Below are positions 7,935-64,000 of a DNA stretch of 64,000 bases, one piece after another (position 1 is the stretch's first letter; every line of letters begins with the position of its first letter). The notes under the pieces were generated by a model. It searched no databases and was not told the DNA's origin. It was given only the letters and a program-made list of their open reading frames with translations. This stretch comes from Tubulanus polymorphus (Eukaryota > Nemertea > Palaeonemertea > Tubulaniformes > Tubulanidae): positions 4,774,501-4,838,500 of the forward strand of contig NC_134035.1 of NCBI RefSeq assembly GCF_964204645.1. The letters run 5' to 3'. Made by a program: the position numbers and the translations under genes.

Positions 7935-10900
7935 ATGACTACGATGGCAGTGACATTGCAGCGACACGACAAGCTACAGCCGTGGGGCTTCAGGCTCCAG
8001 GGAGGTCGAGACTTTAGGATGGCGCTTTCGATAAAAAAGGTAAATGCTTCGTTTACGATCAACAAGTTGTTTATGCAAACCGTATTTGACTTTCGTTTCA
8101 GAGGGGGTTGGCGGATCCAGCTGAGTTTCTATACATTTTCATTAATTCAACTAGATTAATGGCTTCAAATTCGGGCCTATTTTACTTACTATAATAAACG
8201 ATGGCCTGTCAATAATTGGTACAGGGTATGGATTAAATTGGAAGGTCTTGGCATCCAAAGAAGATGAAATGTAAAACAGAATTGAAATAGATGCTAAATA
8301 CGGTAGAAGCTCGTTACAGCTAACTTCATGGGACCAGAAAATGTTGTTATAACCGATAGTTCGTTAAATCCAGTATGAAGTGTTTCTTTTTACTTGGAAT
8401 GAAATTCTATATTTGTAATATCCGATGAATGCTTGTATCAGAGTTCGTTGCAACGAGGTTCCACTGTAATTCGTTGCAAATTAGATGGCATTTACTTCAC
8501 AATTTTGAAAATCGTCCAATAGATATTGTTCTGTAGTGACAAATTAGGGAGTGTGGGGTCCACCAAACTGCAAAAAATTATTTATAATGTACATTTTTTA
8601 CATCTGGGAACAAAATTATTGGTTTTGCCTCCTCCGGTGCCCTACGCTACTTTTATTACATTTAGAAATATCATTTTTTGAATTATGAAATGTATGGGTA
8701 ATTTGTAGTATTTCAGAATTATTTCATCATACGTATTGCCTTAGTATAACTACTGGTTGTTTTAGGGTTACCCGCTAATGTTACGATCAACTACGTAATT
8801 CTGAATAAATATCCACGTAATTCTGTCGTAGATTTATTCAGAAATGATATAAATATTGGAAGTAATATAAACGTTGCATTTCAATACGTTTCCGCAGTAT
8901 TCAATGGTGCAATGTTTGTCACTATTTGTGGCGAAAAATAGGTGTCAATCAATTTATAATTCGTGTAACGCTTTACGTAATAAAAACGAACACGGATTGA
9001 GTAAATAAACAACGGGTTGATGTAATATAAAATCCACGCGTCAATTAACCGAGGCCGATCTAATTAAGACGTCTCAATAGTAGCTCTATTTAAAAGTGTT
9101 TCTATTATACGGTAATATCAAATGCCACGGGAGCTAACGATCCAGCCGCCGGTTAGAATTCCACACCTCATCAATAACAGCATAACACCAGCAGCCACCA
9201 TCGTGATATCACAACATAACATAACATTTTCATGAATTCATAGCGCATTGTACCTGAATTGGAAAAAAAAGAAGTATCAGTTCGTTTCCACGATCATAAT
9301 TTAAAACGTCTTAGAATCCGGCTTGGTCCTTAGATAGGCCTATACCGCATACCAAGTTTCAGAAAGATCGAAAGATGAAAATTCTAGACACAAGAAGCAA
9401 TTGATAAAAAGTATGACATTTACCCCTGTACAGTGCCCCCTGGGGGACATATCAGAAAAAATGACCACTGTTCTGTAGGCCTTTGTTCCATAGATATGTC
9501 ACCAAATTTCAGATAGATTGGATGGCAATTCTGGGAATATCAGCCATTTGACAGATGGGGACATTTTTTGTCCTCATGGACTTTTTGTCCCTTCCGACCC
9601 ACAGGACAAAAATGTCCCATCTGAAACATCCATCAACTTTTGCTTTACATTGCTAGAAGTCCTAGAATTTCTGAAACTGAATTTCTGAATTTCTGATCTT
9701 TCTGAAACTCGGTACGTGGTATCACTAGACCTAGGGCTACAGAATTATGGAGAACGTTTTCCCTTTGTCCCCCAGGGGTGCTGTTCAGGGGGGTTAAATG
9801 TAATATTTTTTGAATTGTTACTTCTAGAGGATTCTTCCGATTGTTCTGAAACTTAGTATGTTGCGTCATGACTCTTTATTCTAGAGTTCATGGTTGTATC
9901 TATGGCCAAGGCCAACAGAAATACAGGGTTTTTATTCGGATGTGTCCTTCAGGGGGCGCTGAACATGGGTATGCGATATTACTCAAGTCCTACATTTCCA
10001 TCCAATCATTCTGAATCTTGGTATGATGTATCTATAAATTGACCAAAGCCTACGATTCTATTGAGCTGTTTCTGATTCGTTGCTTGCGAGTTCAATGAAA
10101 TAATCCATTTGAAGTGTTAACCAAATTCAACATTTTTTGACGCAGCCGAACGCTATTCGGAGTGTGGGCGGATGGGTGAATGATAAAGAAAAGAAATGTT
10201 AATTGATGAAAAGTTAACGCAGACGGAACGCTTTCGGCTCCGGTTGTACACGTCTTAGCGAGCGGTTTATACGTCATTATATCGGAGAATAATACGAAGA
10301 ATGCTACGAATGCTATGCATTATTTTTACAAACTGAGGTGAACCACCAGTTCTGATCTTCCAAACAGAGTGATAGCTAGAGATGCAGTATGTTTGTTCGT
10401 CTGGAACGGTGGCGATTCCCCTTATACTTCGTGTGTAGGATTTTAGAATAAGGAAATCTTTTTAGTTAGAATCAGAGATCATAATATGTAAAACCCGATA
10501 TTGATTTCGAGAAGGAAAATGCCCAGGGGGCTATATTAGAGCTTTCAGAATTTTCTTTGTTTTCGGGGAATTGTGGCGCACTGTGAAATGACGATTGTCA
10601 TATGTTAACAATAGCCCGATATATCGGTTTATAGGTTTTTTGCGTATGAGACCACTTCATAATTCATTCATATTTTATGCGTTGTGAATTATATACTTGA
10701 GCTAAACTCAAGCTGAAGGGTTTTTCCATTGCTACCGATCGAAGTTTGAAAATAGTCACAGGATTTTTAGATATTCGGGGTTCACCCAAAACTAAAAGAA
10801 ATAAGCCTGCCGTTCCATTCTTTTCATTTCAAGATTATGTTAAGGTGAGGAACTGCCATCAACTGGAAAATTCTCCAGAGCTGAAATGGTGTCCCCCAAG

Positions 10901-33800: not shown

Positions 33801-36800
33801 GATTAATCAGAGAATTTGTGAAAGTAGTAGATTAAGGCAGGTTTCGATTGGTCTCTACCGGTGATTCCAAAATTCTCTCATGGCGCGTTCGTTTCGACCA
33901 GAATACACTCGACCTATTCCGGAATCTGTAAACCTGATAGAAGCGGTCGAGAGTTTGTAATCGACAATAGCTATTCCTTCACCGGAATGCGTTCAATCGA
34001 AACCTGCCTAAGATACAGTTAACATCGTCTTACTCGGTAGCGTTTATGGGCTGGAAATATTTCACCGAGTTGAGAATTGGAGAAATAGTCGGTTTTTTTC
34101 GGGATAAATTTTAATTAGATTTGAGCACCGACTTAAAAGCGTGGCTTACCAAATTGGCCAGTACCGAATTTTTTAATTCAAATCAAAATTTTGGTCAAAT
34201 TTGAAGGGTTTACCGAGTAAAGACGAGTGCGAACGGATACTTATTGAGCGCGATATTAAGATTTAAAACATTTAATTTTGCTCAGGAAATAACTACGAAA
34301 TTCCTTACCGAGCAACAGATAGATATAGAAATTGATCGCGTAGTTGAAGCTTTGAACGACGGTGAAAACGGCGTAGAACCACTCGGTCGACGCCGGCGGT
34401 AGAGGAATGAACGTGATCAGCACGGTCGGCAAAGTGAAAACGGCGAACGCTACCGAAACGGTGACGAGCATCACGGTCGTGCGTTTGGCGTTCGCCGTTT
34501 TGGTTTTGGCGTCGCCGATGTCTCTACCGGTGACGAGAACGTACGAAATGACGGCGTTAAAAACAATCGTCAACGACACGGGAATGACGAAGTGATAGAA
34601 GACGATTACTCGGAAGTACGTCGTCTGATCGCGCAGCGCGTAGTAACATCCGCCGCGTTCCGGCGAGTATTCCGTAATCACGACCGCCCAGATCGAACCG
34701 ACGACGTTCGGCGCGAACATCGCGACGACGACCGCGCGCGAGAAATGCCGGGTGCAGACGAGCCGCGATTTCAACGGCGACAACACGACGACCAGACGCT
34801 CGAACGAGATCGCGACGATCAGCCACGAGCTGTAGCAGAACGCCAACTCAAACACGAAATCGTAAATCGTACATTGCGCGTACGTCAGCGCGAAACCGCC
34901 GTCGTCGAGTGCGTAGTCGACGAGCGGTAGTCCGGCGACGCAGAGCAGCACGGCGAAATCGGTTATCGATATCGCCGTCAGGTACGTCGCGTACGACAGA
35001 CGACGCAGGCGCTTGCTCGTCGTCATCACCGCGAAACTGGCGACCGAACCGAACGCGCCGAAACTGAACACGATCGACAGCGACATCGCCGAGAATACGC
35101 GCAACGCGCCGGACATGCGCGAGATCGATTTCAACGCGATGGAACTCGCGTACGGCATTCCGATCGATACGTTCATCTTCTGCTTATGTTTTTCTCACTT
35201 CGTATTTCTCGTTCTGTTACCTGTCTTTCTCTCTAAATTGCTTCCATTTCGATAATGACAAATATCTGTATATTTGGATACGGAGTTGGATTGGAATTCC
35301 TGTGCGTGCGGATAATTGGCTTTTCATTCGCGATCATAATGGCTTTGTATCCATTAAGAATTCGCTGGAAAAGTTTTAGGTTTGAACGTTGAGTGCACTG
35401 TCCTCGGGGCATCGATGAAAGCGCGATTCATTGCTCTTAACAGACACTGAAAATACTGCTCAGAATATATTGATTTTTTCATTTGGTGCTTTTAGGATTA
35501 CCCGAGACAGCGACATCCTGGCTGGAATAAAGGTTCTATAGCTTACCACGCAGGTACGTATTTGAGCTTAATATACTAACCGATCACAGAGAGACAATTT
35601 GGCCCCGGACCAGACCCTAGTGTTTTATTAGACAGTGTGTTCACATGTAAATCACTCACTCGTTACTAAACTGCTTTCAAAATGATGCTGTGGCAAGTAA
35701 CATGGTTCCCACAGTACAGGGAAATTGGGAAAAAACATGGGAATTTTGAAATAATATTCCCAGTTTGGAAATATTTGGGAATTTGAGAAATCTTCCTCTA
35801 GTCAGGAAATATTTGGGAAATTCATTACATTTCATGTATTGCATTTTCCAAGGGGAACTTACTTCAGCAATTTCTCATGAAAATCACCTTTATCAACCAG
35901 TTACCATTAAAATGCAGTACGATGGTATCTGTTCATTTTTATGCAGGTCCCATTTACCATTTGGAAAAGTTGAAAAAAGTCACCCTAAAAATACTTGGGA
36001 AAAACTTGTGAATTTTTAAGTGTAACTGTGGGAACAATGACTGGGAGCGATTCACCTCGTTTAGCAAGGTGAATCGCTTCCAGAACCAGTTAACATTGAC
36101 ATGTAGTAATTTGACCGATGTTAGAAAAGCGCTTGGGCGATCGCGGCTGATGATTCAAATCAAAATGACACGATGTTTCAAGACTTCAGAGAATTAGCAG
36201 ATGTTTGCTAAACAGTTAATTAGACAACGAGAAAGTATTTTATTATGAAGCAGATTATAGAGCCAGAGTCTGTAGCTGTTGTCTACAAGAAAATCTAGTT
36301 ATAGCCAATGGTTTTTATGAAAACTATTTGCAGATAATTATTCAATAAGTTGATGATGACATGTGTTTATGAGACTAGTGTATAATTAGCGGATGCTGAC
36401 CAGTTAATTAGACAACACGAAAGTCTTTAAAAAGATTAGTTGACTAAATACAAATACTGGGTATACATGTATATACTTCCTGTACATATAACTATAAATA
36501 TGTAGAGTGAAATACTCATTAAGCATTATATTTGAAGATTATTTCAATAAAACAGTTTCAAATCCAAGCCCTATAATCTACTTGATAATATGCCCTCTAA
36601 TATATATATACCCTATAATACTCACACTAGTGTCTCGCTTAAAACTTTGATTCTATCTCATTTCGTCGCAGATGATGGAAAAATATTCATCGGAAGCGGC
36701 GTCGGCGATCACTTCGGCCCGAAGTGTCATAAAGGTGATATAATGGGCTGCGGTATTTTGTTCCCTCGCGACTATAACTATAACGATCTGGACAGCGATG

Positions 36801-57059: not shown

Positions 57060-58395
57060 ATAGGCTACACATTGCCCTGGCAGGATAGGAATGAAGCCTC
57101 GTCACCGTGGGAAAAACTCCTTTTACCCTGGCAAGCGAGTATCGGTCCGGTCCCGCATTTTATAGGTCCGACTCCGCATTATGGCTGCCTTAATTTCCTA
57201 GGGGAGTAGCCTTTTTGGCTCCTTTTTACCCTGGCAAGCGAGTATCGGTCCGGTCCCGCATTTTATAGGTCCCGTTCCGTATTTAGGCTGCCTGCCTTTC
57301 CTAGGGCGAAATTGACCCTTTTGACTCCTTTATGCCCTGGCATGCGAGTATAGGTCCGGTCCCGCATTAAGGCTGCCTTTCCTAGGGGGAAATTGGCCTT
57401 TTTGGCTCCTTTTTGCACTGGCAAGCGAGTATAGGTCCGGTCCCGCATTTAGGCTGCCTTTCCTAGGGGGAAATTGGCCTTTTTGGCTCCTTTTTGCCCT
57501 GGCAAGCGAGTATAGGTCGAGTCCCGCATTTAGGCTGCCTTTCCTAGGGGGAAATTGGCTTTTTTGGCTCCTTTTTGCCCTGGCAAGCGAGTATAGGTCC
57601 GGTCCCGCATTTAGGCTGCCTTTCCTAGGGGGAAATTGGCCTTTTTGGCTCCTTTTTGCCCTGGCAAGCGAGTATAGGTCCGGTCCCGCATATAGGCTGC
57701 CTTTCCTAGGGGGAAATTGGCCTTTTTGGCTCCTTTTTGCCCTGGCAAGCGAGTAAAGGTCCCGTCCCGCATATAGGCTGCCTTTCCTAGGGGGAAATTG
57801 GCCTTTTTGGCTCCTTTTTGCCCTGGCAAGCGAGTATAGGTCCGGTCCCGCATTTAGGCTGCCTTTCCTAGGGGGAAATTGGCCTTTTTTGCTCCTTTTT
57901 GCCCTGGCAAGCGAGTATAGGTCCGGTCCCGCATATAGGCTGCCTTTCCTAGGGGGAAATTGGCCTTTTTGGCTCCTTTTTGCCCTGGCAAGCGAGTATA
58001 GGTCCGGTCCCGCTTATAGGCTGCCTTTCCTAGGGGGAAATTGGCCTTTTTGCCCTGGCAAGCGAGTATAGGTCCGGTCCCGCATATAGGCTGCCTTTCC
58101 TAGGGGGAAATTGGCCTTTTTGGCTCCTTTTTGCACTGGCAAGCGAGTATAGGTCCGGTCCCGCATTTAGGCTGCCTTTCCTAGGGGGAAATTGGCCTTT
58201 TTGGCTCCCTTATGCCCTGGCAAGCGAGTATAGGTCCGGTAACGCATTTAGGCTGCCTTTCCTAGGGGGGAAATTGGCCTTTTTGCCCTGGCAAGCGAGT
58301 ATAGGTCCGTTCTTGCGTCTAGGCTGTTGTCCGTGCCCACCCTGGAGAAGGGGTGGCTCCTGCTCGATTTTGCACTGGCAAGTGAAGATTAATCC
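57060..58395 (-). repeat. 81-bp satellite array
   Basis: About fifteen units of 80-81 bp with CCCTGGCAAGCGAGTATAGG, TCCGGTCCCGCATTTAGGCT and CCTTTCCTAGGGGGAAATTG plus GCCTTTTTGGCTCC. Units in 57.4-58.2 kb are almost identical, while both ends are diverged (57060-57300, 58300-58395). Since 81 is divisible by three, frames stay open on both strands; on the minus strand the translation repeats TYTRLPGQKGAKKANFPLGK. Indels in several units break every frame, so I treat it as non-coding. The 14-mer CCCTGGCAAGCGAG is shared with the hairpin at 145-214. Confidence 0.95.
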
Positions 58396-59348
58396 TGCGA
58401 TAAGGGGAATGGGTCAAACGAGTAATTCTCACAAGAAATGAATAGAACAATAACGACAACGAAATACTAATTCAAAATATTGATTATGATATATTTATGT
58501 TTATTCTTAAATGGTCAATCATAAATGAATGAATAAAGGAAGAACAAACAGAGGAATCAGACTCACCTCTCAGTTTCAATATCATAGAATAAATCAATCT
58601 TTAGAAAATATACAATATCTCATTAACGTTCTTTATGATTATCGATTGCACTTGATAATTATTCCAATCACTGAGTATCAGCTTATTATATCCCGATATT
58701 ACACAAGTTCAAATCATATCATCCATTCATACACTGATTGCTGCAGTTTTATCCAGATGTGATCGATGGGATTTTGACTTTCGACTTAATACCAGGTGAC
58801 TAGTGTTTTTCTGAATACAGGAATCATTTTACAAACAACAAACAAGAATCAACCGCGCTTTGAAAATAAATTATCAATCTCGCTCGTAATTTAACGTAAG
58901 TCATTTTTTCATCTCAAAACGATCGCGTTTGATTATTATTCCGATGAACACGCGCATTGTCCGATACACCATCTGATTATTATGTTCCGATATTGCACAA
59001 GTTTATTCCTTACAGATTTCTAAGCGTCACCATCTTCACCGAAATCGAGCATTCATTCGCCGATTATTCTACGATAAGAGTTCGGACTGATCGTTGCAGT
59101 TTATCCAGCTGTGAACGATAAGTTGATAGTTCAAATGAACGCGTATTCCAATAAAGAATTCCATATTCTTTAGTTGCAGCTCCTTTGAGCAAATATTACG
59201 GAATCTCTACAAATAAACCGTAAGCCTATGTGAGCCGTGAGACATTACAACTGATTCATGTATACAATATATCTGGTCACGTCCACGGTCACGGTCACGG
59301 TTAATCTAACCGTACGCGACGCTAAGATCAAATCATGCGAGTTGTATA
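58396..59348. other. Gene-free AT-rich stretch with an imperfect duplication
   Basis: 58680-58770 and 58980-59120 share CCGATATTRCACAAGTT, TCATTCRYYGATT and GCAGTTTTATCCAGMTGTGA in the same order, an old duplication of about 300 bp spacing. No coding sequence. Confidence 0.5.
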
Positions 59349-59850
59349 AGTAAATGGGATAATAGGGGTTCATACCAAAGGTCGAACGGTGAGTGAGTAA
59401 AAAATTAAAATAAATCCCCGCACGCTCGAATTTATTTTAATTTTTTACTCACTCGACCATTCAACCTTTGATATGAACCCCTATTATCCCATTTACTCTT
59501 AAAATATTCATGTTTTAAAAGTGAGAGTAAAATGTTAACAGAATAATCTAGAAAATAAGATCAAATATAGATTTCGAGTGATAAAATATAAATTTTAACA
59601 TAAAAAGTAACGAGTATTAACGAGTGAAATAATTCATATTTAAAACATTGAATATTCATGTTTACATGCGTTAAATTCTTGATTTTTAACATAAAAAGTG
59701 TGAGTAAAGTGTGAGTGAAATAATTCATATTTAAAACATTGAATATTCATATGAGTAAGAATTATTTTAATAACATTTTGTTTATAAAAATGAAGAAAGA
59801 AGAAGAAGAACCGAAATTCAAAATCGAAATGAAGCCAATGTAATAAATCT
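59349..59850 (+). repeat. Left inverted repeat of the 2-kb element, with snap-back end
   Basis: Matches the complement of 60765-61307. Unlike the right repeat, its outer 150 nt form a hairpin of their own: TAAATGGGATAATAGGGGTT at 59351 onward pairs with AACCCCTATTATCCCATTTA ending at 59500, with arms of about 65 nt and a loop centred on CCCCGCACGCTCG. It then carries one copy of a block of about 115 bp that the right repeat has twice. Confidence 0.85.
59751..59843 (+). pseudogene. Mirrored N-terminal fragment of the 226-residue ORF
   Basis: Thirty codons, reading MSKNYFNNILFIKMKKEEEE before the stop, duplicate the start of the minus-strand ORF because the inverted repeat extends into the gene. 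It stops where the repeat ends. Confidence 0.8.
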
Positions 59851-59917
59851 AATGCCTTACTTTCACTCATTTTTATAGTTAAAATATATAAAATAAATCA
59901 AATTAAAAGATGCTGTT

Positions 59918-60141
59918 TTAATCCTCCAAATCATTTAAATCATTAACTTTTTTATTGTTATTTTTTCTGTGATTGTTTCCATTTAACTTCTTTAACTTTT
60001 TACCTAATTTCATATTTTCATTCATCAAATCTTTACTGATATTTTCATAGAAAAAGAAAAGTGCAGCCAATATTAACCCTCCTGCTATAAGATAAAAAGC
60101 TTCAAATCATTTTTCCCAATTGGAATGCTGAAATCTTCCAT
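59918..60141 (-). pseudogene. Broken small membrane-protein ORF of the 2-kb element
   Basis: A start at 60141 reads MEDFSIPIGKND and soon stops. A different frame of the same stretch continues with FEAFYLIAGGLILAALFFFY, a clear membrane segment, then a Lys/Asn-rich tail ending at the stop at 59918. The total is two bases over a multiple of three, so a single one-base indel (or a TGA stop in the second frame) separates the parts. It follows the 226-residue ORF on the same strand, so both may have been one transcript. Confidence 0.5.
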
Positions 60142-60191
60142 TTATTTAAGAGAAAAATTAAAATTAATTTGAAATATATTATTTTGAATAT

Positions 60192-60872
60192 TTAGAGTTG
60201 AATTATTATTTTTGAGTTATGATATTTTGATTTAAGATGGTGTGATTTATCGCTTCGAGTATAATATTTTCCACAATTACATAACACTTTTTCATTAGGT
60301 TCATATTTAGGCGCAACAATTTCATTATCTAAGTTACATTGAACTGCAACATCTTTATATGATTTTTCATTATCTAAATCACATTGAATTCCAATATTTG
60401 ATGAATTTTCATTATAGATAATTTGTTTATTATCAAAATTAAAATAATATAATTGTCTTTTTTCAATTCTTAAGTTAATCAAATCATTATAATCTTTTGA
60501 AAGTATTAAATCACTTTTTCTTTCATTGAAAGGAATTTTGAGAATATTTATTATGTTTTCATCTAAAGTTCCTTTATAATTAAAAACTGTATTGAATATT
60601 TTAGGATTTTTAGCGCCATTATCAAAAGTATCAATTAGATCAGTAATTAAATATGTTTCATTTGATAATATTTGATTAATTACAGTAATATTTTCAATTT
60701 TATAATGTCTTGCGGACACTAGATTTGTTGCTGAAATATAATTTCTAATGTTAAACTGTGAAAATAATTTATTGGCTTCATTGATTTCGATTGTGAATTT
60801 CGGTTCTTCTTCTTTCTTCATTTTTATAAAAAAATTTTTATTAAAATAATTCTTACTCATATAAATATTCAA
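60192..60872 (-). CDS. 226-residue ORF of the 2-kb element with C-terminal Cys/His finger
   Basis: Intact open frame, rich in Asn, Lys and Ile. The N-terminus (to about residue 35) is encoded inside the inverted repeat. There is a charged KMKKEEEPKF stretch near 17-27 and a central region without recognisable fold. Then come two imperfect internal repeats, NIGIQCDLDNEKSYKD and DVAVQCNLDNEIVAPK, and a C-terminal CNCGKYYTRSDKSHHLKSKY followed by H: a C-x-C...H...H arrangement that could bind zinc. Fingers of this short CxCG-Y-...-HLKSKxH style occur in proteins of mobile elements and large DNA viruses. No enzyme motif is seen, so a DNA-binding or regulatory role is only a guess. Three in-frame Met codons (1, 5 and 18) could each be the start. 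Confidence 0.65.
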   Translation of the reverse strand: MNIYMSKNYFNKNFFIKMKKEEEPKFTIEINEANKLFSQFNIRNYISATNLVSARHYKIENITVINQILSNETYLITDLIDTFDNGAKNPKIFNTVFNYKGTLDENIINILKIPFNERKSDLILSKDYNDLINLRIEKRQLYYFNFDNKQIIYNENSSNIGIQCDLDNEKSYKDVAVQCNLDNEIVAPKYEPNEKVLCNCGKYYTRSDKSHHLKSKYHNSKIIIQL

Positions 60873-61307
60873 TGTTTTAAATATGAATTATTTCACTCAC
60901 ACTTTACTCACACTTTTTATGTTAAAAATCAAGAATTTAACGCATGTAAATATGAATATTCAATGTTTTAAATATGAATTATTTCACTCACACTTTACTC
61001 ACACTTTTTATGTTAAAAATCAAGAATTTAACGCATGTAAATATGAATATTCAATGTTTTAAATATGAATTATTTCACTCGTTAATACTCGTTAATTTTT
61101 ATGTTAAAATTTATATTTTATCACCCGAAATCTATATTTGATCTTATTTTCTAGATTATTCTGTTAACATTTTACTCTCACTTTTAAAGCATGAATATTT
61201 TAGGAGTAAAAGAAATCAAAATAAATTCGAGCGTGCGGGGATTTATTTTAATTTTTTACTCACTCGACCGTTCGACCTTTGGTATGAACCCTATTATCCC
61301 ATTCACT
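60765..61307 (-). repeat. Right inverted repeat of the 2-kb element
   Basis: Complement of the left repeat with a few substitutions. It holds two tandem copies of the block containing TTCATATTTAAAACATTGAA, GCGTTAAATTCTTGATTTTT and AACATAAAAAGTGTGAGTAA where the left repeat has one. It lacks the snap-back extension. The upstream region and first 30-35 codons of the 226-residue ORF lie within it. Confidence 0.85.
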
Positions 61308-62100
61308 GTATACTTCTGAACTGAAAAATATCGTACAATTTGTAGACACATAAAATCAAACAAATCTGCGTAAATTTAATAACAATACAACAATACAATA
61401 CACGGGTTGGATTCATGCAGTTGATGATAACGATCAATTCTAAAAACTTAAAACTCAATTACTGTTATCCATTTCGAACTCTACCTGATTTTTTCAGCAT
61501 TTGTTCACTTTTATCAAAGTCATCTACTGCTAGCGTTCCCCATGAATTGTTTAGCACATTTAAATGACAGCGAGCTGATGAGCCGCTACGTTTGTTTATA
61601 TAGTCTTCAGTCAGAATTGTGCAATTATTTTTCTAATTTTGTGTGTTGTTCTCGGGGTCAAAGGTCTATGTCTCGTAATAAAGAAGTTTCCAGTTTCTAG
61701 GCGCCAGTTTATGGCGGTCCCTCGAGGTCCCCATTGTTGCGATAATTTGCGCTCATTTTTAAAACATAAGTTTAGATTGAATATCATATAGTTCTGCAGT
61801 CCCTTGCTCGATGAAATCAATTTATACACCATTTTAAAGGAAATGAAATGCAGATATTTGCTGGCGATTCTTGGAATTTTTGAACGCAACAATTGAGAAC
61901 AGTGACAATGTGAAACCAAGGACCGCATATCTTAACTGTGCGTAAAAGAAACCGCAATATCTATTAATTTAGAAATATCTAAGTATTTCTTGAAGCTATA
62001 TTTCCTATTTTCACAGAGGTTAAGGAGGGTTATTTGCAGTTTAAGCCTGCGTTAAAATCTTTTGAATATCTTTCCTGACGACTGATCTGTACCCGCTTGA
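61308..62100. other. Gene-free stretch between the 2-kb element and the 102-bp satellite
   Basis: No conserved coding sequence. An open frame at 61611-61928 (minus) shows no family resemblance and is not called. Confidence 0.45.
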
Positions 62101-62129: not shown

Positions 62130-64000
62130 TTAATTTAATACAAAATCTTCAGAATGATATGAAGCCTCATGAATCTGGATCTTTCAACCCATCTCTTGAA
62201 AATGAGTTCAGTACACCCCACCCATAAATAACAATTCAATACCGCATCTTCAGGACGATATGCAGCCACAAAATTCTGGATCTTTCTACTGAACTATTGA
62301 AACTTAGTTTAGTACACCCTACACATATAGGACAATTGAAATCAGCATCTTCAGGAAGATATTAAGTCCCAAAATTCGGGATCTTTCGACCAATCTATTG
62401 AAAATTAGTTCAGTACATCCTACCCATATATGACAATTCAATACTGCATCTTCAGGACGATATGAAGCCCAAAATTCTGGATGTTTCGACCAATCTATTG
62501 TTTTCAGTTCATTACACCCTTCCCATAAAGGACAATTGAATTAAGCATCTTCAGGACGATATGAAGTCACAAAATTCTGGATCTTTCAACCAATCTACTG
62601 GAAATCAGTTCAGTAATCAAATACATCATTTTCAGGACCATATGTATAGCGAGAAAATCCAGATCTTTTGACCCATCTTTTGAAAATGAGCTCAGTACAC
62701 CATACCCATATATGACAATTCAAAAAAGCATCTTCAGGACGATATGAAGCCACAAATTCTGGATCATTCGACCAATCTATTGAAAATTAGTTCAGAACAC
62801 GCTACACATATAGGACAATTTAATACAGCATCTTCAGGACGATATGAAGCCACAAAATTCTGGATCTTTCAACCAATTTATTGGAAATCAGTTCAGTAAT
62901 CACATACCCGATCTATTGCAATTGAATACAACATCTTCTAGACCCCTTGTAGCCACAAAATTCTGGATCATCCAACCGTTCTCTTGATAATCAGTTCAGT
63001 ACAACCCATAGCATCTATAAAGATTAAATACATCATTTTCAGGACCATATGTAGTGAGAAAATCCAGATCTTTCGACCCATCCAATGGAATTTAGTTCAG
63101 TACACCCTACCCATATGTGGGTAATTCAATACAGCATCTTCAGGACGATATGAAACCACAAATTCTGGATCTTTCGACCAGTCTTTTGAAAATCAGTTCA
63201 GAACACGCTACACATATAGGAGAATTTAATACAACATCTTGAGGACGACATGAAGCCACAAATTCTGGATATTTCTTCCAATCTATTGAAACTTAGTTCA
63301 GTACACCCTACCCATATATGACAATTTAATACAACATCTACAGGACGATATGAAGCCCAAAATTCTGGATGTTTCTACCAATCTAATGAAAATCAGTTCA
63401 GTACACCCTACCCATATAGGAAAATTTAAAACAGCATCTTGAGGACAATATGAAGCCCCAAAATTCTGGATGTTTCGACCAATCTAATGAAAATAAGTTC
63501 AGTACACCATCCTCATATATGACAATTCAAAACAGCATCTTCTGCATGATATAAAGACACAAATTCAGGATCTTTCGACCAATCTCTTAAAAATTGGTTC
63601 AGTACACCCTACCCATATATGACAATTCAATACTGCATCCTCAGGACGATATAAAGTCCCAAAATTCTGGATCTTTCGACCAATCTATTGAAAATCAGTT
63701 CAGAACACTCTACACATAAAGGACAATTGAATTCAGCATCTTCAGGACGATATGAAGCCACAAAATTCTTGATCTTTCAACCAATCTATTGAAACTAAGT
63801 TCAGTACACCCTACCCATATATGACATTTTAATACAGCATCTTCAGGACGATATGAAGCCCAAAAATCTGGATGTTTCGACCAATCTATTGAAAATCAGT
63901 TCAGTACACCCTACCCATTTATGACAATTTAATACAGCATCTTCAGGATGAAACGAAGCCCCAAAATTCTAGATATTTCGACCAATCTCTTGAAAATCAG
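62130..64000 (+). repeat. About 102-bp satellite array, continuing past the window
   Basis: About eighteen units of 101-103 bp with TTCAGTACACCCTACCCATA, TATGACAATTCAATACAGCA, TCTTCAGGACGATATGAAGC and CACAAAATTCTGGATCTTTC, then GACCAATCTATTGAAAATCA. Units differ from each other by 10-20 per cent, so it is older than the 81-bp array. It runs to the last base. Confidence 0.95.

Follow-up and report, generated by a model that had tools for sequence, protein, structure and literature searches.

The stretch of DNA considered here (hereafter the window) covers 64,000 nucleotides of the genome of the nemertean Tubulanus polymorphus (NCBI RefSeq assembly GCF_964204645.1, contig NC_134035.1, positions 4,774,501 to 4,838,500 of the forward strand), and close to its right end, at window positions 59349-61307, lies a 1959-bp element with long inverted arms and ends resembling those of Polinton (Maverick) transposons. 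A preliminary description, made from the letters alone, had delimited the element by these coordinates and by its matching termini, and both are correct: the ends read AGT...ACT, with AGTAAATGGGATAATAGGG from 59349 pairing with CCCTATTATCCCATTCACT ending at 61307 (19 nt, 95%). The features of the element, including its open reading frames (ORFs), are as follows.

59344..59348, no strand: left copy of the target duplication, GTATA (single GTATA in the unoccupied paralogue L052)
59349..59839, plus strand: left inverted arm (self-blastn, repeat search)
59349..59497, no strand: terminal palindrome of 149 bp, 89% self-complementary, bounded by AGT...ACT
59790..59838, plus strand: copy of the first codons of ORF1 in the left arm (repeat pair, 81%)
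59829..59870, minus strand: remnant of the ORF3 start, MSESKALDLLHWLH (tblastn with the ORF3 of L002)
59919..60119, minus strand: ORF4, one hydrophobic stretch, frame broken (open kin in L002-L007)
60192..60860, minus strand: ORF1, 222 aa from ATG, zinc-finger-like C-terminus (150 copies scored of 677 genome candidates)
60771..61307, minus strand: right inverted arm, overlapping the 5' end of ORF1 (repeat search, self-blastn)
60859..61080, no strand: tandem repeat of 91 bp x 2.4 copies in the right arm
61204..61307, minus strand: outer ~102 nt of the terminal palindrome, incomplete (C11:4835704-4835807)
61308..61312, no strand: right copy of the target duplication, GTATA (comparison with L052)

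The arms had been described as inverted repeats of about 500 bp, which is a fair account: blastn of the element against itself aligns them in two blocks (element positions 1-404 with 1602-1959, 86% over 405 columns, and 245-491 with 1423-1670, 91% over 254 columns), and a repeat search recovers a 261-nt stretch that is 98% identical between them. The left end is itself the 149-bp palindrome with AGT...ACT bounds of its own, and the right end keeps about 102 nt of it; the right arm further contains the 91-bp tandem repeat and the left arm the duplicated first codons of ORF1. The extreme AT-richness remarked on earlier corresponds to a GC content of 23.4%, compared to 44.9% and 35.9% in the 2-kb flanks. 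Related palindromes occur elsewhere in the genome (40 scored of 1140 candidates). A stand-alone family of 150-bp palindromic miniature inverted-repeat transposable elements was considered and dropped on one case, L053, which continues into the element leader and is an element end.

GTATA stands directly at each end of the element, as previously noted, and the joined flanks with one GTATA (a 218-nt query) match C11:4853710-4853928 at 94% over their whole length. At this unoccupied paralogous site, 18-20 kb from the element, the 120 bases read (L052) run ...GCGAGTTGTATAC... with a single GTATA and the insert absent. Since the paralogue is uninterrupted and has GTATA only once, the element is a real insertion, with ends, target duplication and empty site all directly observed. 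As read, the duplication measures 5 bp; should a terminal T have been lost from the element, it would be the 6-bp TGTATA.

On the minus strand, ORF1 extends from 60860 to 60192 with no internal stop, in agreement with the intact 226-codon ORF described before; that length counts from a TTG, and counting from the first ATG gives 222 codons. ORF1 has a C-x-C...H...H pattern (zinc-finger-like) near its C-terminus. Downstream of it, ORF4 is followed by the opening codons of ORF3. ORF4 is the frame that had been called a broken small membrane-protein ORF, and in six sibling copies (L002-L007) its kin are indeed open for 67-77 aa and contain, by eye, a hydrophobic segment. The ORF3 remnant was found by tblastn with the ORF3 of L002 (14 residues, E 0.005), and the ORF3 of L032 and L031 gave no match to it as tblastn queries. 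With ORF4 broken, ORF3 truncated and the right palindrome incomplete, the window copy looks damaged, and it is thus probably no longer complete.

The absence of Polinton genes from the window copy, claimed earlier, also stands: no ORF other than ORF1 is longer than 76 aa, and a set of 17 family query proteins, which included PolB pieces and the penton-like protein and was without integrase, ATPase, protease and major capsid, gave only ORF1 matches against L001/L043. The names penton, VLTF3-like and PolB are ones that we assume from motifs and gene order, without a family match. As to a capsid in the window copy, there is no penton match, the major capsid not having been searched for. For ORF1 itself, no Pfam family was found above the cut-off and no relative at E <= 1e-3 among 441 candidates. 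Weak ORF1 matches in PHROGs and Pfam (best E 0.013 and 0.06) were taken as chance, and a structure model with a predicted local distance difference test score (pLDDT) of 30 was useless and left out of the fold search.

The element belongs to a family. A search with the whole element gave 245 matches (40 scored of 1964 candidates), and candidate lists for single genes were scored in part (150 each of 677 for ORF1, 372 for ORF3, 1843 for PolB and 1680 in a further list), so that the counts drawn from these lists are lower bounds. Twelve further copies of 2.4-7.7 kb could be bracketed between their ends, with identical 6-bp flanks in 11. These comprise 11 of 14 bracketed rows, with identical flanks in 10 (one row was dropped because L011 is the same place as L038, and one L037 row and the L045 row because their ends were mispaired), and a twelfth copy, L047/L048, which carries a PolB N-terminus, ORF2 and ORF3 in place of ORF1 and has GCTAAC on both sides; L020, L023 and L024 have flanking sequence in common and may not be independent. 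Further copies, an empty site and duplicated flanks, on which the preliminary description had made its case depend, were all found, which leaves its proposal unrefuted. In L032 and L035 the arms reach about 3 kb (up to 3.1 kb) and are 99.5% and 99.6% identical, which means that inverted duplication spans almost the whole of some copies and places genes in each arm.

Several individual copies are of interest in their own right. In L031, L034, L035, L037 and L039 the interior holds tandem arrays (about 24-bp units by eye), with several frames open, which in the larger copies lie between the cassette genes. The L034 element is inserted in a retroelement gene (L034:329-1621 and 8143-9135), which we take to be env-like, with GACATC on both sides. 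At L005:3124 and L015:1034, element ends lie about 20 kb apart in opposite senses with a common flank, tgcgga, as if recombination between the arms of two copies had inverted the intervening stretch.

The small elements have in common a cassette in the order ORF1-ORF4-ORF3. ORF3 lies within 4 kb of ORF1 in 81 of the 150 ORF1 copies, and an opposite ORF1 lies within 9 kb in 55; PolB is found within 15 kb of ORF1 in a single copy out of 150, compared to a control in which 44 of 150 PolB copies have a penton gene downstream. Constraint on the cassette is directly observed in the ratio of nonsynonymous to synonymous substitution (dN/dS), calculated from open copies only, with stop-containing copies and pairs at dS <= 0.08 excluded. 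The median is 0.50 for ORF1 (242 pairs, 23 copies) vs. a neutral value of 0.93, falling to 0.38 in codons 1-175 with 0.74 in the remainder; it is 0.28 for ORF3 (184 pairs, 20 copies) vs. 0.76, and 0.18 for ORF4 (52 pairs, 11 copies) vs. 0.73. The selection that had been read from the intact ORF can thus be upheld for the genes of the family, and not for the window copy itself.

Genes for PolB, a penton-like protein and an integrase are present in the same genome. Among the 150 candidates scored with the PolB piece of L044, 32 lie in frames of 1350-1359 aa with a stop-free match, and eight of these open copies (picked by eye) lie in a row with a penton-like gene and an integrase on the opposite strand, with about 13 kb from the PolB match to the integrase match (e.g., on C7, PolB at 6790866+, the penton-like gene at 6794926+ and the integrase at 6803555-); in the C2 example among the eight, the integrase has one stop. 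The integrase piece was not recognised in a Pfam search of its own and is placed via its 965 homologues, where PF00665 is found in 99 of the 120 listed and PF00385 as well in 63 of these (counted by eye). The penton-like protein was not recognised by Pfam either, and the PolB piece had no match in the phage collection.

Two observations at related places bear on the relation of the family to these Polinton genes. In L044, L046, L047 and L006, a truncated PolB N-terminus lies behind the same palindromic terminus and leader. In addition, a PolB tail follows directly after the ORF1 stop, just past the YFDTD motif and at nearly the same place, at five of 33 distinct places with ORF1 (L010, L025, L032, L036 and L037), with a more diverged PolB piece (63%) behind ORF1 in L031 and no such tail in the window copy itself. 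The running of the ORF1 stop into a PolB tail, as plainly seen in this branch as the open Polinton genes are elsewhere, indicates that this branch, at least, descends from a Polinton that lost interior sequence. At L025:1304-3764 (C5:9035071) we find in succession an element end, ORF1, the PolB tail, ORF113 and a penton-like gene; an integrase match lies 11 kb farther along, and L025 is perhaps a Polinton in which ORF1 stands in for most of PolB.

A second PolB subfamily, represented by L050 and L051, differs in its terminus (by eye), and its PolB contains an intein-like insert, which at L050:305-1366 falls within the YFD-TDS motif (Pfam: LAGLIDADG_3 above the cut-off at E 1e-7, Intein_splicing below it at E 2e-5). 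The same motif is uninterrupted in the PolB of L044.

We consider the window element probably to be one copy of a non-autonomous, gene-bearing Polinton satellite family. The preliminary description had proposed either a non-autonomous derivative mobilised by a Polinton or a miniature family with accessory genes, and the evidence fits both together, with mobilisation by a Polinton as the part that we infer. In such a scheme, at least one branch of the family would have arisen from a Polinton through loss of most of the interior. Because the ends have been kept, the element could be replicated from them in trans by the protein-primed polymerase of the Polinton, and inserted, likewise in trans, by its integrase with a 6-bp staggered cut (5 bp as read in the window copy). 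The cassette would probably help the element to compete for this machinery: ORF1, being zinc-finger-like, is predicted perhaps to bind the ends, and ORF4 and ORF3, which are short with a hydrophobic stretch, may act at a membrane. More tentatively, and at somewhat less than even chances, we suggest a true Polinton satellite, i.e., a lineage amplified to at least 150 copies of ORF1, two of them within one element in some cases, with a selected cassette of ORF1, ORF4 and ORF3, and ORF2 in a few, that uses Polinton polymerase and integrase and maybe Polinton capsids, with the cassette redirecting the machinery. A gene-bearing non-autonomous Polinton family is not reported in the titles or abstract openings of the literature searched.

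A number of observations weigh against the satellite family. The candidate lists behind the counts were scored only in part. The flanks of L023 agree at only four of six positions, and those of the window copy match over 5 bp rather than 6 unless the terminal T was lost. A penton gene lies within 15 kb of ORF1 in eight of 150 copies, and PolB or penton in nine vs. a mean of 4.06 for shuffled places; in L025 and L027 ORF1 adjoins penton genes (with the integrase 11 kb on for L025), so small elements are not the only carriers of the cassette genes. Of the 242 ORF1 pairs, only 126 lie under the 2.5% point of the null distribution, and the dN/dS pairs, drawn from open copies, are of common ancestry and not independent. 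The only intact PolB copy read at its 5' end (L051) belongs to the other subfamily with its different terminus, the AGTAATAGGGG end being seen before truncated PolB only, and at the remaining 27 of the 33 ORF1-bearing places no PolB tail was found behind ORF1.

Of the alternatives, the one that survives best takes the small elements as ordinary deletion derivatives, with the cassette as leftovers of a Polinton lineage that would normally carry it, and the elements as passive debris whose genes have no role. The position of ORF1 beside Polinton genes in L025 and L027 is what this would predict, and the ORF1 dN/dS is only moderately under the neutral value. However, ORF1 and ORF3 stay together in 81 of 150 copies where PolB is near in one, constraint on ORF3 and ORF4 is clear, and several small elements carry the cassette genes in both of their near-identical arms, and we regard passive debris as unlikely.

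It is also possible, if doubtful, that a separate self-replicating element is involved, in which the subset bearing ORF2 (a possible rolling-circle-type initiator) is autonomous and the likeness to Polintons is largely one of ends; the idea is compatible with the satellite reading for part of the family. ORF2 is a protein of 758 aa found in a few larger copies, with five stop-free full-length copies that are 99-100% identical. For ORF2 at L032:5276-7552 (minus strand), a search of 5.8 billion proteins gives five relatives at E <= 1e-3, and viral contigs give none. The N-terminal part has a weak structural likeness to ribosomal S6, TATA-binding protein and rolling-circle initiators; profile searches for such an initiator found nothing, the fold matches being weak, and the DxDxT, YNK and RxE motifs that we presume for it are our own assignment. 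Finally, a hairpin-ended element with parvovirus-like replication and flipping terminal palindromes, to which the palindromic terminal 149-408 bp (self-identity 0.79-0.90) would be suited, is highly improbable, as the central loop faces the same way with respect to the outer end in each of the 15 palindromes extracted (13 distinct, by eye), with no flip/flop forms seen.

Elsewhere in the window, a tandem array at 57292-58285 (81 bp x 12.4 copies, 93% matches) has long open stretches on both strands, and an array of about 100-bp units at 62132-64000 reaches the window end. An open frame at 34259-35194 on the minus strand matches the rhodopsin-type G-protein-coupled receptor family 7tm_1 (E 2e-19), in keeping with an animal host.

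To place the satellite family among known systems, we compare it first with Mavericks, which in vertebrates have 6-bp duplications, AG/CT or AGT/ACT end motifs, arms of 46-1447 bp and lengths of 12.7-24.6 kb, and which encode capsid homologues with particles not observed (PMC8097293). The likeness lies in the long inverted arms, about 500 bp here and within the Maverick-type range (up to 3.1 kb in siblings), in the AGT...ACT ends, in the 6-bp target duplication of 11 of the 12 bracketed siblings (5 bp as read in the window copy), and in the PolB tail of some siblings (five of 33 ORF1 places, six with the diverged one). The differences lie in size, at 1959 bp and 2.4-7.7 kb in siblings, and in content, since the window copy has no room for PolB, integrase and capsid genes and belongs instead to the ORF1/ORF4/ORF3 cassette family. 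The window element is therefore not an autonomous Polinton: it has the end features and lacks the size and gene content. Ginger transposons share integrase-type transposition, but their TGTNR ends and 4-bp duplications (PMC2836005) differ from the AGT ends and 6-bp duplications of the element family.

Non-autonomous DNA transposons with conserved cis ends likewise resemble an autonomous partner in their ends and target duplications while lacking its machinery, whereas here the family has constrained genes that are rarely seen beside the PolB of the partner. Satellite viruses and virophages (Mavirus and relatives) offer a further parallel, in that the element would parasitise a larger one and bring its own genes; the role of the giant virus would fall to a Polinton, and the family is known here from genome sequence alone. 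If it is a true satellite, it would represent, within an animal genome, a Polinton equivalent of phage satellites and virophages. The genome is also one in which numerous Polinton copies are open, and it holds gene families that have no described relatives. If a satellite family relies on Mavericks and has selected genes, it would also provide an indirect test for Polinton particles, for which nuclease-protected satellite DNA would argue.
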